A program made the translations under genes and the position numbers. Below are positions 11,517 to 16,345 of a DNA stretch of 32,778 nt, one piece after another; within the stretch, counting starts at the first letter, position 1; each line of letters begins with the position of its first letter. The notes under the pieces were generated by a model. That model was not told the DNA's origin, searched no databases, and saw only the letters and a list, made by a program, of their open reading frames with translations. The stretch comes from Pseudomonadota bacterium (GTDB lineage Bacteria > Pseudomonadota > Gammaproteobacteria > Burkholderiales > SG8-39), in assembly GCA_027624175.1 (NCBI GenBank), contig JAQBXT010000023.1, positions 1 through 32,778 on the forward strand. The letters are read 5' to 3'.

Positions 11517-11600
11517 GCTCAAGCCTTAAGCTAGCACAGGCTTGAATAACTCCGCGCGATGCATTAGGTTTGCGCCATCCAAGGAGAAAAGGGGAAAAAA

Positions 11601-12710
11601 ATGTCAGCGACGCTATTTGCCGGAAGCGCCCTCGCCGTGCGCGGCGATCTCGCGGAGGCCCACCAACGCGCCTGGAAGGCGATTGCCGCTCCGGGCACCT
11701 GGCTCACCGGCGAGCGCCGGGTGGCGGCGGCGGCGGAGATCCGCCGCGCGCGAAGCTGTGCTCACTGCGTCCTCATCAAGGCCGCGCTGTCGCCCAACGG
11801 GGTGAAGGGCGTTCACCAGACTCTCGGGGTGCTGGGCGAGGCGGAAGTGGAGCTGATCCATCGCGTGGTCGGCGATCCGGGCCGGCTGAGCGAATCCTGG
11901 GCGCAATCGGTGCTCGCCCGTGGCCTGTCCGACGGCGAGTACGTCGAGATCGTCGGCCTGGTCGCGATGGTGATGATGCTCGACACCTGCACTCGCGCGC
12001 TCGGCTTGCCCGAGCAGCCGCTGCCGGCGCCCCAGGCCGGTGAGCCGACCCGTTATCGTCCCGCCGGCGCGCGCAAACAGGCGGCCTGGCTGCCGTTGGT
12101 GGAGCCGCAGGATGCGACCGAAGCCGACGGTCCGATGTACCCCAGCCCCAAGGCGGGCTACATCTATCGCGGCCTGTCGATGGTGCCGCAGTCGATGCGC
12201 GACTACTGGGCACTCGCCAATTGCCACTACATGCCGGGCCAGTACGTCTACCAGTTCGACAAGTCGATACGCGCCATCACGCGCCCGCAGACCGAGATCC
12301 TCGCGGCGCGCGTCTCGGCGATGCACCAATGCGTGTACTGAACCACCGCACACTCCTACATGCTCCGTGAGAGCATGCAAATCGAAGGCAAGCAGATGGA
12401 TGTGCGCGGCGTCACGCAGGGATTCAACGAGCATATCGAGGTGCCGCACGCCGACGTGCTGGTGGAATTCGCCGAAGCCGTGGTGTTGCAGGACGCGGCG
12501 CGTACCGCCCGTGCGAGCAAGAATATGCGCGCGGTGCTGGGCGACGAGGGCTTCGTCGATGCGGCGGCGATCGTCTCCGCCTTTCATGGTTTCGTGCGCA
12601 TCGCCGATGCGATCGGCATTCCCTACACCTCGGCGGCGCAGGGCCAGGACCTGCCCGAGCTGCGCGAGCAGGTCGGAATCAACGAGTTCTACCGCGTAAA
12701 GGGCGCTTAG
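11601..12710 (+). CDS. AhpD/CMD-like redox protein, candidate selenoprotein (CxxU)
   Basis: One frame runs from ATG 11601 (AAGGGG 6 nt upstream) to TAG 12708-12710, interrupted only by TGA 12339-12341, codon 247. Homology-like features continue across it without frame change: EILAARVSAMHQCVY, then TGA, then TTAHSYMLRESMQIEG. The TGA falls exactly where the AhpD/carboxymuconolactone-decarboxylase fold has the second Cys of CxxCxxxH (C244, U247, H251). A perfect hairpin follows 17 nt downstream. Residues 41-130 form an earlier related module with its own CxxC (C53-AH-C56) and a helical region around HRVVGDP and GLSDGEYVEIVG. The full product would be 369 residues with selenocysteine at 247. Proteins of this fold are thiol peroxidases/reductases, and AhpD-like and CMD-domain selenoproteins are known. 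Ordinary termination would leave 246 residues lacking the redox site. No Sec machinery is in the window. Confidence 0.8.
12339..12341 (+). other. In-frame TGA, probable selenocysteine codon
   Basis: The TGA replaces the resolving cysteine codon of CVY(C)TTAH in the CMD-type active site. Downstream codons stay open for 122 more residues of family-like protein. A nonsense change from TGC or TGT is the alternative; the exact coincidence with a redox cysteine and the hairpin downstream favour recoding. Confidence 0.75.
12359..12377 (+). promoter_or_regulatory. Putative bacterial SECIS hairpin
   Basis: CATGCTC (12359-12365) and GAGCATG (12371-12377) pair perfectly over 7 bp around the 5-nt loop CGTGA. 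The loop starts 24 nt after the TGA and has G as its second base followed by U. Known bacterial SECIS elements lie just downstream of the UGA inside the coding region, with a short apical loop containing an early G, so spacing and loop both fit. There is no U-tract, so it is not a terminator. Confidence 0.68.
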
Positions 12711-12714
12711 CCCG

Positions 12715-13008
12715 CTAAGGCACCAGCAGCGCCGGCACTGCGCTCAGGGCCGAGTAGTCGAGCACGATGACCTCGGGCTTGTCCTCGAGGTTGGGCGAGA
12801 AGGGGTGGATCGACAATTCGCCGAACAGCCGGCCGAAGGCGATCTGCTGGTCGATGCTGATGTCCTGCTCGCGAAGGACGATCACCTCGTGCTCCACCAG
12901 CGCATCGTGAATCTGGCGAAACTCGGCGGGTGAAAGCGGGCGGCGCAGGTCCGCGCCGCGTATTTCGGCGCCGATGAATCCGTTCAGCGGAACGATCTCT
13001 GTGGGCAT
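12715..13008 (-). pseudogene. Truncated TauD/TfdA-family dioxygenase (N-terminal part only)
   Basis: The 97-codon frame from ATG 13008 matches the N-terminus of alpha-ketoglutarate-dependent taurine/2,4-D dioxygenases: VPLNGFIGAEIRGADLRRPL, EVIVLREQDISIDQQIAFGR and HPFSPNLEDKPEVIVLDYSA. It then ends in ten unrelated residues. Intact members are about 270-300 residues; the iron-binding HxD...H triad and the 2-oxoglutarate Arg lie in the missing part, so it cannot be catalytic. The remnant ends 4 nt from the convergent selenoprotein gene, so the deletion that removed its 3' end lies near 12,740. Confidence 0.8.
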
Positions 13009-13069: not shown

Positions 13070-13828
13070 TCAGGCCATCGAGCGCCTGAGAAGCGCGCTC
13101 GCCTCGTCGACCAGCATAACTATCAGCAACATCGCCAGGATCACGCTGCAGGCCTGCGGACTGTGGAACAGCGACAGCGAGACATAGAGCATCTGACCGA
13201 GGCCGCCGGCGCCGACGAAGCCGAGCACTGCCGCCATGCGGATATTGATTTCCCAGCGGTACAGCGAGTAGGCGACGCACTGCGGCAGGACACCGGGCAG
13301 CGTTGCATAGAAAAATACGCTAACGCGTGAAGCACCCGAATTCACCAGCGCATCGGCGGGCTCGCTCGGCGCGTTCTCGAGGGCTTCGGCAAACAGGCGT
13401 CCCAGCACGCCGGTGGTGTGCAGGGCGAGCGCGAGGGTACCGGCAAACGGACCCAAGCCCGCCGCGAGCACCATCAGCGCCGCGAAGACGAGCTCGGGGA
13501 TGGAACGCAGCGCGTTCAGCACGAAGCGCGAGGCAAGCTGGGGCAGGGGGCCGAAACGCCCGGCGGCGGGCAGCGCGATCATGATTCCGCCAAGCGCTGC
13601 CAATAGCGTGGCGACGGCCGATATCGCCAGCGTCTCCAGCGTGCCCCAGGCAATCTGCGACAGGAAAGGCGCCGACAGGTCGGGCGGAAAGAATTCGCCG
13701 ACGAATTTTCCGAATGCACCCAGGGTGCCGGCGGCAAATAATCCTGCGGGATCGAGCCGCAGAAAGGCGGCGCTGGCCCACACCAGGCCCAGGATCAGCG
13801 CGGTTCCCGCGAGCCAGGCGCTCTTCAC
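13070..13828 (-). CDS. PhnE-like ABC transporter permease (second)
   Basis: A 252-residue inner-membrane permease of the PhnE type with about six hydrophobic helices. It has the EFFPPDLS segment typical of the family and the ABC-coupling region around DALVNSGASRVSVFFYATLP, followed by YRWEINIRMAAVLGFVGAGG. Start GTG 13828 overlaps the first permease's stop (GTGA); the open frame upstream of this is not PhnE-like. It forms the channel with the neighbouring permease, energised by the PhnC-like ATPase. Two non-identical PhnE subunits in tandem are normal for PhnCDE-type systems. The substrate (selenium oxyanion, phosphonate or phosphite) is discussed under the binding protein. Confidence 0.85.
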   Translation of the reverse strand: MKSAWLAGTALILGLVWASAAFLRLDPAGLFAAGTLGAFGKFVGEFFPPDLSAPFLSQIAWGTLETLAISAVATLLAALGGIMIALPAAGRFGPLPQLASRFVLNALRSIPELVFAALMVLAAGLGPFAGTLALALHTTGVLGRLFAEALENAPSEPADALVNSGASRVSVFFYATLPGVLPQCVAYSLYRWEINIRMAAVLGFVGAGGLGQMLYVSLSLFHSPQACSVILAMLLIVMLVDEASALLRRSMA

Positions 13829-14664
13829 GCCAGCGCCCGGCGGAAAAAATTGGACACCGCATCGGCCAGCATCACCAGCAGCAGGAAGGTGGCGAGGAAG
13901 GTGCAGGCTTCGGCACCATTGAGCATGCGCATCGACAGTTCGAGCTGCTGGCCCAGCCCGCCGGCGCCGACAAAACCCATGATCACCGAGGCGCGCACCG
14001 CGCACTCCCAGCGGTATACGGTGTAGGAGACCATTTCCCGCATCGAGCTGGGCAATACGCCGTAGAAAAACGCCTGGACGCGCCCGCTACCCGACTCCAT
14101 CAATGCCCGCGCCGCGCGCGTGCCGGTTGATTCGTAGATCTCGGCGTAAACCTTGGCCAGCATCCCGCCGTAGGTAATGGCGAGCGCGAGCACGCCGGCG
14201 GTCGCGCCAAGGCCGACTGCGCGCACCAGCAGCAGCGCCCAGACCAGCTCCGGGATGCCGCGCAGCAGAATGACAAACAGTCGCAGCGGATAGCGGATCG
14301 CGCGGCGCAGTCCGGCGTCGCGCGCCGGACCGAGCGACGATTGCGACAGCACCGCGGTGGTGGCAATCGACAGCGGAAACGCGACCAGGAAGGCCAGCGC
14401 AATGCCGACGTTGGCGATGGCCAGCGTCTCGAGCGTGGAGCGGCCCACCAGCAGCAGGAATTCCTGTGACAGCGCCGGCGGGAAGAATTGGCCGAGGAAC
14501 TGTCCCATCACCCTGAGGTTCGCGGGGTCGACGAGCGCCGCGGGATTGAACTCGGTCAGGCGGATGCCCGGCCACAACAGCAGCAGGGCCAGCGTGACGA
14601 TCGCCACGCGCGCCCATCGCGCCGGGTCGCGCTCGGCAGGCGCGAGCGCAGCGGCTACTTGCAT
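13825..14664 (-). CDS. PhnE-like ABC transporter permease (first)
   Basis: A 279-residue integral membrane permease homologous to its downstream partner. It has an N-terminal helix ([17 protein letters not shown]), the [10 protein letters not shown] segment, a periplasm-to-membrane core, and the coupling region [20 protein letters not shown] followed by [23 protein letters not shown] 14664 overlaps the end of the ATPase gene by 10 nt and the stop overlaps the next permease by 4 nt, so the transporter genes form one tightly coupled operon in the order binding protein, ATPase, permease, permease. Confidence 0.87.
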
Positions 14665-15482
14665 AGCGGCGATTGCAGCGGACGATTGCGGGACGCCTCG
14701 AATGGCCGCCCCTCCTGCGTCGGGAGATAGCCTTCCTGCGAGTAGAGCTGATCGAGCCGCTGTGCATCGATTTGTTCGGTGGGCAGGTCGAATGCGACGC
14801 GCCCATCGCGCAGGCCGACGATGCGCGGAAAGTGCGCCAGCGCCAGGTCGACCGCGTGAAGGCTGGCGAACAGCGTGACGCCGCGCGCCTGCGCTTCTGC
14901 TGCGAGCACGCCGACGGTATGGTTGGCAAGCGCCGGATCGAGCGCCGAGACCGGTTCATCGGCGAGGATCAGCTCGGGCTGCTGGTAAAGCACCCGCGCG
15001 ATGCCGACGCGCTGCGCCTGCCCCCCGGAGAGCCTGTCGCAGCGATCGAACAGGCGATCGGAAAGATCCAAGCGGGCAAGCTCGGCGCGCGCGCCGGCCA
15101 TGTCGAGCGGATAAGCCAGCGAGACCAGCGCTTTCCACAGCGGCCAGCTGCCAAGGCGCCCGGCGAGCACCGCGGTCACCACGCGCTGGCGCGGTGGCAG
15201 TGGCGGCGCCTGGTGAATCAGCCCGATACGTGCGCGCAGTCGCCGGCGCGCGCCCGCGTCGAGCGCCCAGGGGTCGGTTCCCAGGATCTCGACGCTGCCG
15301 TCGGTCTGGCGCAGCGCGGTGGCAAGCACTCGCAGGAGCGTGGTCTTGCCGGCTCCCGAGGGGCCGATGACGGCGACGCGCTCCCCGGGGCGGATGGACA
15401 GTACGACGCCATCGAGCGCGCGGCGCTCTCCTTCGCGCATGACCGTCAGGCGCTTGAGGGCGAGCGCGACTGCCGCAGTCAC
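14655..15482 (-). CDS. PhnC-like ABC transporter ATP-binding protein
   Basis: A 275-residue ABC ATPase. Walker A is GPSGAGKTT (40-48), the signature LSGGQAQR (151-158) and Walker B LILADEP (171-177), followed by a switch histidine in [10 protein letters not shown]. It resembles PhnC, the ATPase of phosphonate-type importers, and acts on the cytoplasmic face to drive uptake through the two permeases. GTG 15482 overlaps the binding-protein stop (GTGA); a longer open frame reads on into the binding-protein gene and is rejected. Length is typical. Confidence 0.88.
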
Positions 15483-16345
15483 TTGATGACGCCTACGTCG
15501 CGGCCGATGGCCTCGATGCTGCGGTAATTCTCGGCGCGGGTGGCAATGAAGCGGCTGGCGCGCTGCAGATCCAGGATTTCCTTGTGCGCAGGGTTGGCGG
15601 GATCGAGTTTGAGAAATGCGTCGGTCAGTTTCTTCACGATCAGCGGATCGAGATTGCCGCGCACCGTCCAGTTGTAGTCGTAATACGGCGGCGTGGTGTA
15701 GATCACCTTTACCTTCGAGACATCGACCTTTCTTGCGGCGACCAGCTTGTCCCATACCGAAGCGTTCAGCGCGCCGGCCTCGACCCGTCCGGATTCGACC
15801 CACGACGCCGTGGCGTCGTGCGCGCCGGAGAAGGCGATGCGCTTCAGGTCCTTGGCGGCATCGATGCCGTTCTGCTTCATATAGTGGCGGGGCATCAGGT
15901 GGCCCGAGGTCGAGGCCACCGATCCGAAGGCGAAGTTCTTGCCTTTGAGGTCGGCGAGGCTGTTGATGCGGGCCGACGTGCTGGCGATGATCTTGCTGGT
16001 GAAGCTCGCATCCTCCGCGCGCTGCACGATCGGAATCGCATTCCCGGTGCGCAAGCGCGCCTGTATGAAGGTAACGCCCCCCAGCCAGGCAAGATCGATT
16101 TTTCCGGCTGCCAATCCTTCGACGACGGCGGGGTAGTCATTCACCGGCGTCCAGTTGATCTTCATGCCGGTGTTCTGTTCGAGGTGCTTGCCCAGCGGCG
16201 TGAATTTTCGCAGCAGTTCGGTCGGCGATTCGTCGGGAATGGCGGATACGCGCAGGACCGGCTGCGCCTGCGCCAGCGATATGCCGCCGATGGCACAGGC
16301 GAGCAGGGCGACGCGCAAACGGGAAGCTAACGGACGCAAGACCAT
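15479..16345 (-). CDS. PhnD-like periplasmic binding protein, possibly selenium oxyanion type
   Basis: A 288-residue periplasmic solute-binding protein with a signal peptide ([17 protein letters not shown], cleavage near residue 28). The mature part starts [20 protein letters not shown] and has [32 protein letters not shown] and [12 protein letters not shown], the PhnD-like type II fold. The combination SAIPDE...PTEL...DLAWLGG is, as far as I remember, characteristic of the group named 'putative selenate ABC transporter substrate-binding protein', found in selenium-using bacteria, rather than of phosphonate-specific PhnD. No C-P lyase or phosphonatase gene is in the window, whereas a candidate selenoprotein lies about 2.8 kb away. 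The family (PhnD-like) is secure; the substrate is inference and could also be phosphonate or phosphite. Confidence 0.82.

Follow-up and report, generated by a model that had tools for sequence, protein, structure and literature searches.

The window analyzed here, which is the whole stretch of 32,778 nucleotides, contains a reading frame at positions 11601-12710 of the plus strand whose sole internal stop is a TGA at 12339-12341, codon 247 of the translation, and which closes with TAG at 12708-12710. When the TGA is read as selenocysteine (Sec, U), the frame gives a protein of 369 residues with the motif QCVY-U-TTAH (CVYUTTAH) around Sec247. The preliminary description of this DNA had correctly recognized a frame with one TGA; its count of 369 sense codons, however, is corrected here to 368 sense codons plus the TGA. 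A purine-rich leader, aaggagaaaaggggaaaaaa, precedes the ATG at 11581-11600 on the plus strand and, judged from its sequence, is the probable ribosome binding site. No consensus promoter or terminator was found for the gene. On the minus strand, 12715-13008 encodes a 97-aa N-terminal fragment of a TauD/TfdA dioxygenase (PF02668 positions 2-83 of 267), which is convergent to the selenoprotein gene, ends a few bases past its 3' end and is probably a gene remnant. At 13070-16345, also on the minus strand, lie an ABC transporter permease (PF00528), an ATPase (PF00005) and a phosphonate-type periplasmic binding protein (PF12974).

The window is GC-rich, and long chance frames are frequent in it, such as a 324-aa open reading frame on the opposite strand; the open frame alone is therefore little proof, and the claim was tested by conservation. 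Scanning genome contigs turned up five relatives, and a search through the whole genomes of 300 members of the order yielded three strong matches in addition to the window; one of the three (L025) is the same contig as the homologue L019. Of the 98 genomes from the window's family, 14 (that of the window among them) contain a full-length member, and every one of these members has exactly one in-frame stop, which is a TGA. The alignment consists of 17 full-length genes including that of the window, where the homologues are 36-78% identical and come from beta-, alpha- and gamma-proteobacterial metagenome-assembled genomes (MAGs).

The TGA is present at aligned codon 247 in 17/17 genes, including those of an alpha-proteobacterial MAG (41% identity) and a gamma-proteobacterial MAG (36%). 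TGC, TGT or TGG does not occur at this position in the aligned homologues, and none of them ends naturally there. On either side of the TGA, the homologues differ from one another mostly at codon position 3; relative to L019, the numbers at codon positions 1, 2 and 3 are 32, 28 and 99 before the TGA, and 18, 19 and 50 after it. As read from the alignment, this pattern shows that the sequence before and after the TGA alike is constrained as protein-coding DNA, and the preliminary claim of family-like protein on either side agrees with it. Judged in the same way, the retention of the TGA in every aligned gene with related protein around it is beyond chance. A sequencing error or SNP that made TGA from TGC or TGT, which could be considered for a contig of a draft assembly, can for practical purposes be dismissed, as the TGA is found in the independent assemblies of many genomes.

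No Cys-containing full-length member turned up among 300 genomes of the order, 398 of the phylum, 98 of the family and 369 of the class, which are overlapping samples, or in plasmids. This absence is a statement about sampling, because the 2005 study of the Sargasso Sea selenoproteome reported some Cys homologues of its 'hypothetical protein 1' (PMC1088965). One further copy of the gene (L077; G736:C66:94709-95389, minus strand) comes from a selA-containing genome and is missing residues 92-153 and 244-305; the deletions remove the Sec codon and the SECIS and shift the frames, and this copy is a pseudogene or an assembly artefact.

Downstream of the TGA, a hairpin is formed at 12359-12377 of the plus strand (CATGCTC-CGTGA-GAGCATG), with a stem of 7 bp and the loop CGTGA, which starts after 24 nt downstream of the TGA and has G at its second position. 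This corresponds to the arrangement of a bacterial SECIS, that is, a hairpin shortly 3' of the UGA whose apical loop has a G near its start. Among the 59 invariant columns of the alignment at which a choice of codon exists, only Leu255 and Arg256 show no codon variation across the 17 genes, being always CTC and CGT, even though CGT accounts for only 12% of the Arg codons in these genes; both codons form part of the 5' stem and loop of the hairpin. In three of the seven stem pairs both sides have changed, and 90% of the cells are paired. None of 500 shuffles reaches the observed covariation score and paired cells, which are also well above those of all slid versions. The single-sequence fold of the region is not exceptional relative to shuffles (z −1.05), 5 of the 16 distinct sequences lack pairing at the two outer positions of the stem, and one homologue (L023) has a lowest-energy fold of its own that differs from the hairpin. 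The hairpin thus fits a bacterial SECIS as a sequence-based assignment that is convincing through comparison, not through the single fold.

The window's own genome encodes selA, selB, selC and selD, and the absence of selB or selC, which had been named as a possible refutation, was not what was found. The tRNA-Sec gene (selC) scores 65.7 bits with the anticodon tca, and selB, selA and selD score 388, 588 and 433 bits, respectively, each of the four being over its cut-off. Contig C3 carries selA, selB and selC side by side, and selA, selB and selD have no internal stops when read. In the 98 family genomes, selA is over the cut-off in 14/14 genomes with a full-length member versus 41/98 overall, and the hypergeometric probability of this co-occurrence is approximately 1e-6, a statistic that ignores relatedness. 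In two genomes (G706 and G716) the selenoprotein gene is followed directly, on its own strand, by selA-selB-selC, and in two others (G752 and G749) Sec genes are located on the gene's contig within about 11 kb.

Apart from this link to selA-selB-selC in some genomes, no conserved gene neighbourhood was found. Two candidate neighbours were rejected: glucokinase had matches on two contigs that are mutual copies (L102 and L021) and was not the adjoining gene, and the TauD fragment had no match anywhere. A Sec-containing formate dehydrogenase gave no match over the cut-off in the window's own genome, which is 88.7% complete, and the partial matches are free of internal stops; the selenoprotein gene may therefore be one of few Sec users in this genome.

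If the TGA were a true stop, the locus would encode a truncated protein of 246 aa and a separate downstream ORF of 116 aa, or would be a pseudogene, and ORFs at 11601-12341 and 12360-12710 do exist in the standard code. The 17/17 conservation of the TGA led to the rejection of this reading together with those of a pseudogene and a sequencing error; the coding-type constraint on either side of the TGA, the frozen codons within the hairpin and the complete Sec machinery also stand against a true stop, which is extremely improbable. Reassignment or suppression of the TGA, for example its reading as Trp or Cys, retains slightly more weight and is still very improbable, since the TGA lies exactly at the position of a catalytic Cys, tRNA-Sec and SelB are present, and the SECIS-type hairpin is conserved. 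In addition, selA, selB and selD of the same genome are uninterrupted, and in several homologues the reading frame terminates with TGA. Judging from these sequence comparisons, the gene almost certainly encodes a 369-residue selenoprotein of the family NF041238. The conserved TGA, the SECIS-type hairpin, the Sec machinery and the co-occurrence with selA agree with the Sec decoding at an AhpD-type CxxUxxxH site that had been put forward in the preliminary description. As suggested by conservation and machinery, the UGA at 12339-12341 would be decoded by Sec-tRNA(Sec) and SelB, and the hairpin would direct the insertion of Sec at this codon.

The family itself is already known. The protein matches the NCBIfam model NF041238, AhpD_rel_CFYUT, 'alkylhydroperoxidase-related (seleno)protein', with 440.8 bits versus a cut-off of 175, over model positions 1-356 of 357 and residues 13-364 of the protein, and it is a well-supported new member. 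The match is of full length, with the CxxU motif and Sec at the same place. NF041238 is entered in a 2026 review as 'AhpD-related protein (hypothetical protein 1, Sargasso Sea metagenome)' with the motif CxxU (PMC13188914), and 'hypothetical protein 1' was first reported in the 2005 Sargasso Sea selenoproteome (PMC1088965). The lineage of the window's member differs from that of these marine records, and nothing essential was found to be different. Since the family is catalogued, automatic annotation need not split the gene into two, as had been expected earlier. AhpD-like and CMD-like selenoproteins are also catalogued under TIGR01926, NF041047 and PF02627 (PMC13188914) and share with the protein of the window the CxxU of an AhpD/CMD-type site. 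With its 178 positions, the TIGR01926 model spans a single domain, whereas in the window's protein another AhpD-like domain precedes it, and the match to this model is below the cut-off (52.8 versus 81.8 bits). The gathering cut-off of PF02627, the CMD family, is likewise not reached by the window's member (20.2 versus 23 bits), and all 17 members match PF02627 below E 1, with a best value of 5.8e-07. The N-terminal domain of one homologue has a weak match to NCBIfam NF053654, 'YciW-related (seleno)protein' (alignment A4, E 0.0065); by sequence, the use of Sec may extend to other fused AhpD pairs.

The AlphaFold2 model of the whole chain has a pLDDT of 80 and a pTM of 0.84 and is confident except for the linker at residues 155-194 and a short loop at 341-350. 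The model predicts two fused AhpD-like domains with the selenol in the C-terminal half. The active site of AhpD has the spacing E-x11-C-x2-C-x3-H. The C-terminal AhpD/CMD domain (about residues 186-345; 12156-12635, plus strand) matches AhpD structures with Z of 10-14.5, in addition to its weak PF02627 and sub-cut-off TIGR01926 matches. It carries the motif E232-x11-C244-xY-U247-T-x2-H251 at 12294-12353 of the plus strand, in which E232, C244, Y246, the TGA residue, T248 and H251 are all invariant in the 17 sequences, so that the catalytic set of Glu, CxxU and His (E232, C244, U247 and H251) is complete. Aligned to solved structures, codon 247 falls on the second Cys of the CxxC of AhpD, in line with the earlier proposal that the TGA replaces a redox Cys to give CxxUxxxH. 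The AhpD of Mycobacterium tuberculosis (1knc, 1gu9, 1lw1) shares the E-x11-C-x2-C/U-x3-H spacing and the fold (Z about 10); the protein of the window differs from it in having Sec for the second Cys and two domains in one chain, at about 10% identity.

The N-terminal domain (residues 1-148; 11601-12044, plus strand) is modelled with a pLDDT of 93, and its 16 best PDB matches are all of the AhpD family or close relatives, with Z of 6.8-8.7, where the next unrelated structure has 4.2. It contains only the CxxC, C53xxC56 at 11757-11768 of the plus strand, invariant in the 17 aligned genes, and is without the catalytic-relay residues Glu and His. The preliminary description had assigned the protein a separate N-terminal module with its own CxxC; the C53/C56 motif stands, and the module is predicted from the model and the PDB matches to be a second AhpD-like domain. 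Compared by profile, the two domains show only a weak similarity (hhalign P 0.017), in which CxxC and CxxU line up, and their relation is clearer in the structure comparison.

The best structural match of the whole chain is human Sestrin2 (Z 16.2, 243 residues, 3.4 Å, 11% identity). Human Sestrin2 (5t0n, 5dj4) and bacterial Sestrin-like fused AhpD pairs (PMC11429811) have two AhpD-like domains per chain, as predicted here. The complete active centre, however, is in the C-terminal domain with Sec in the window's protein, whereas the redox Cys125 of Sestrin2 is in the N-terminal Sesn-A domain. No Sestrin chain appears among the hmmsearch matches up to E 10. In the portion consulted of the study of bacterial Sestrin-like fused AhpD proteins, these proteins are described and no Sec member is mentioned, and the electronegative hinge of Sestrins is given as a DDYDY-type motif that replaces the active site of the C-domain (PMC11429811). 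Such a hinge is absent from the C-domain of the window's protein, which carries CVYUTTAH instead.

By analogy with AhpD, the C244/U247 pair of the C-terminal AhpD-type site would cycle between a reduced thiol/selenolate and a selenenylsulfide, and it would reduce a hydroperoxide or act as a redox partner of another peroxidase. A peroxide-reducing role like that of AhpD is, on this analogy, fairly likely. The protein might instead be a redox sensor or thiol-disulfide partner on a Sestrin-like fused AhpD fold and no peroxide reductase, which is a less likely reading that competes only with the functional part of the explanation and leaves the Sec identity untouched. The similarity to Sestrin2 as the closest whole-chain structure and the N-domain that retains CxxC without the catalytic Glu and His speak for this reading, and the full and invariant AhpD set in the C-domain, E/C/U/H with the motif Tyr, speaks against it. 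In Sestrin2, the Cys of the N-terminal domain reduces alkyl hydroperoxide (PMC4674687).

Since the N-domain has an invariant CxxC but no relay Glu and His, its role may be a structural one, that of a dithiol for resolving or relay, or that of a metal site. A more speculative and rather unlikely proposal is that, in a bacterial Sestrin-like fused pair, the N-terminal C53/C56 dithiol would relay for, or resolve, the C244/Sec247 selenenylsulfide within the chain, which would make the protein a two-centre thiol/selenol relay.

As the family is known already, the main practical gain is the correct annotation of the gene and the precise SECIS. The gene is a clean and strongly conserved case of stop-codon recoding. 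With no Cys form among the full-length relatives found, and with a Sestrin-like frame of two domains that holds the selenol, the protein offers a concrete test case for the contribution of Sec to an AhpD-type centre.
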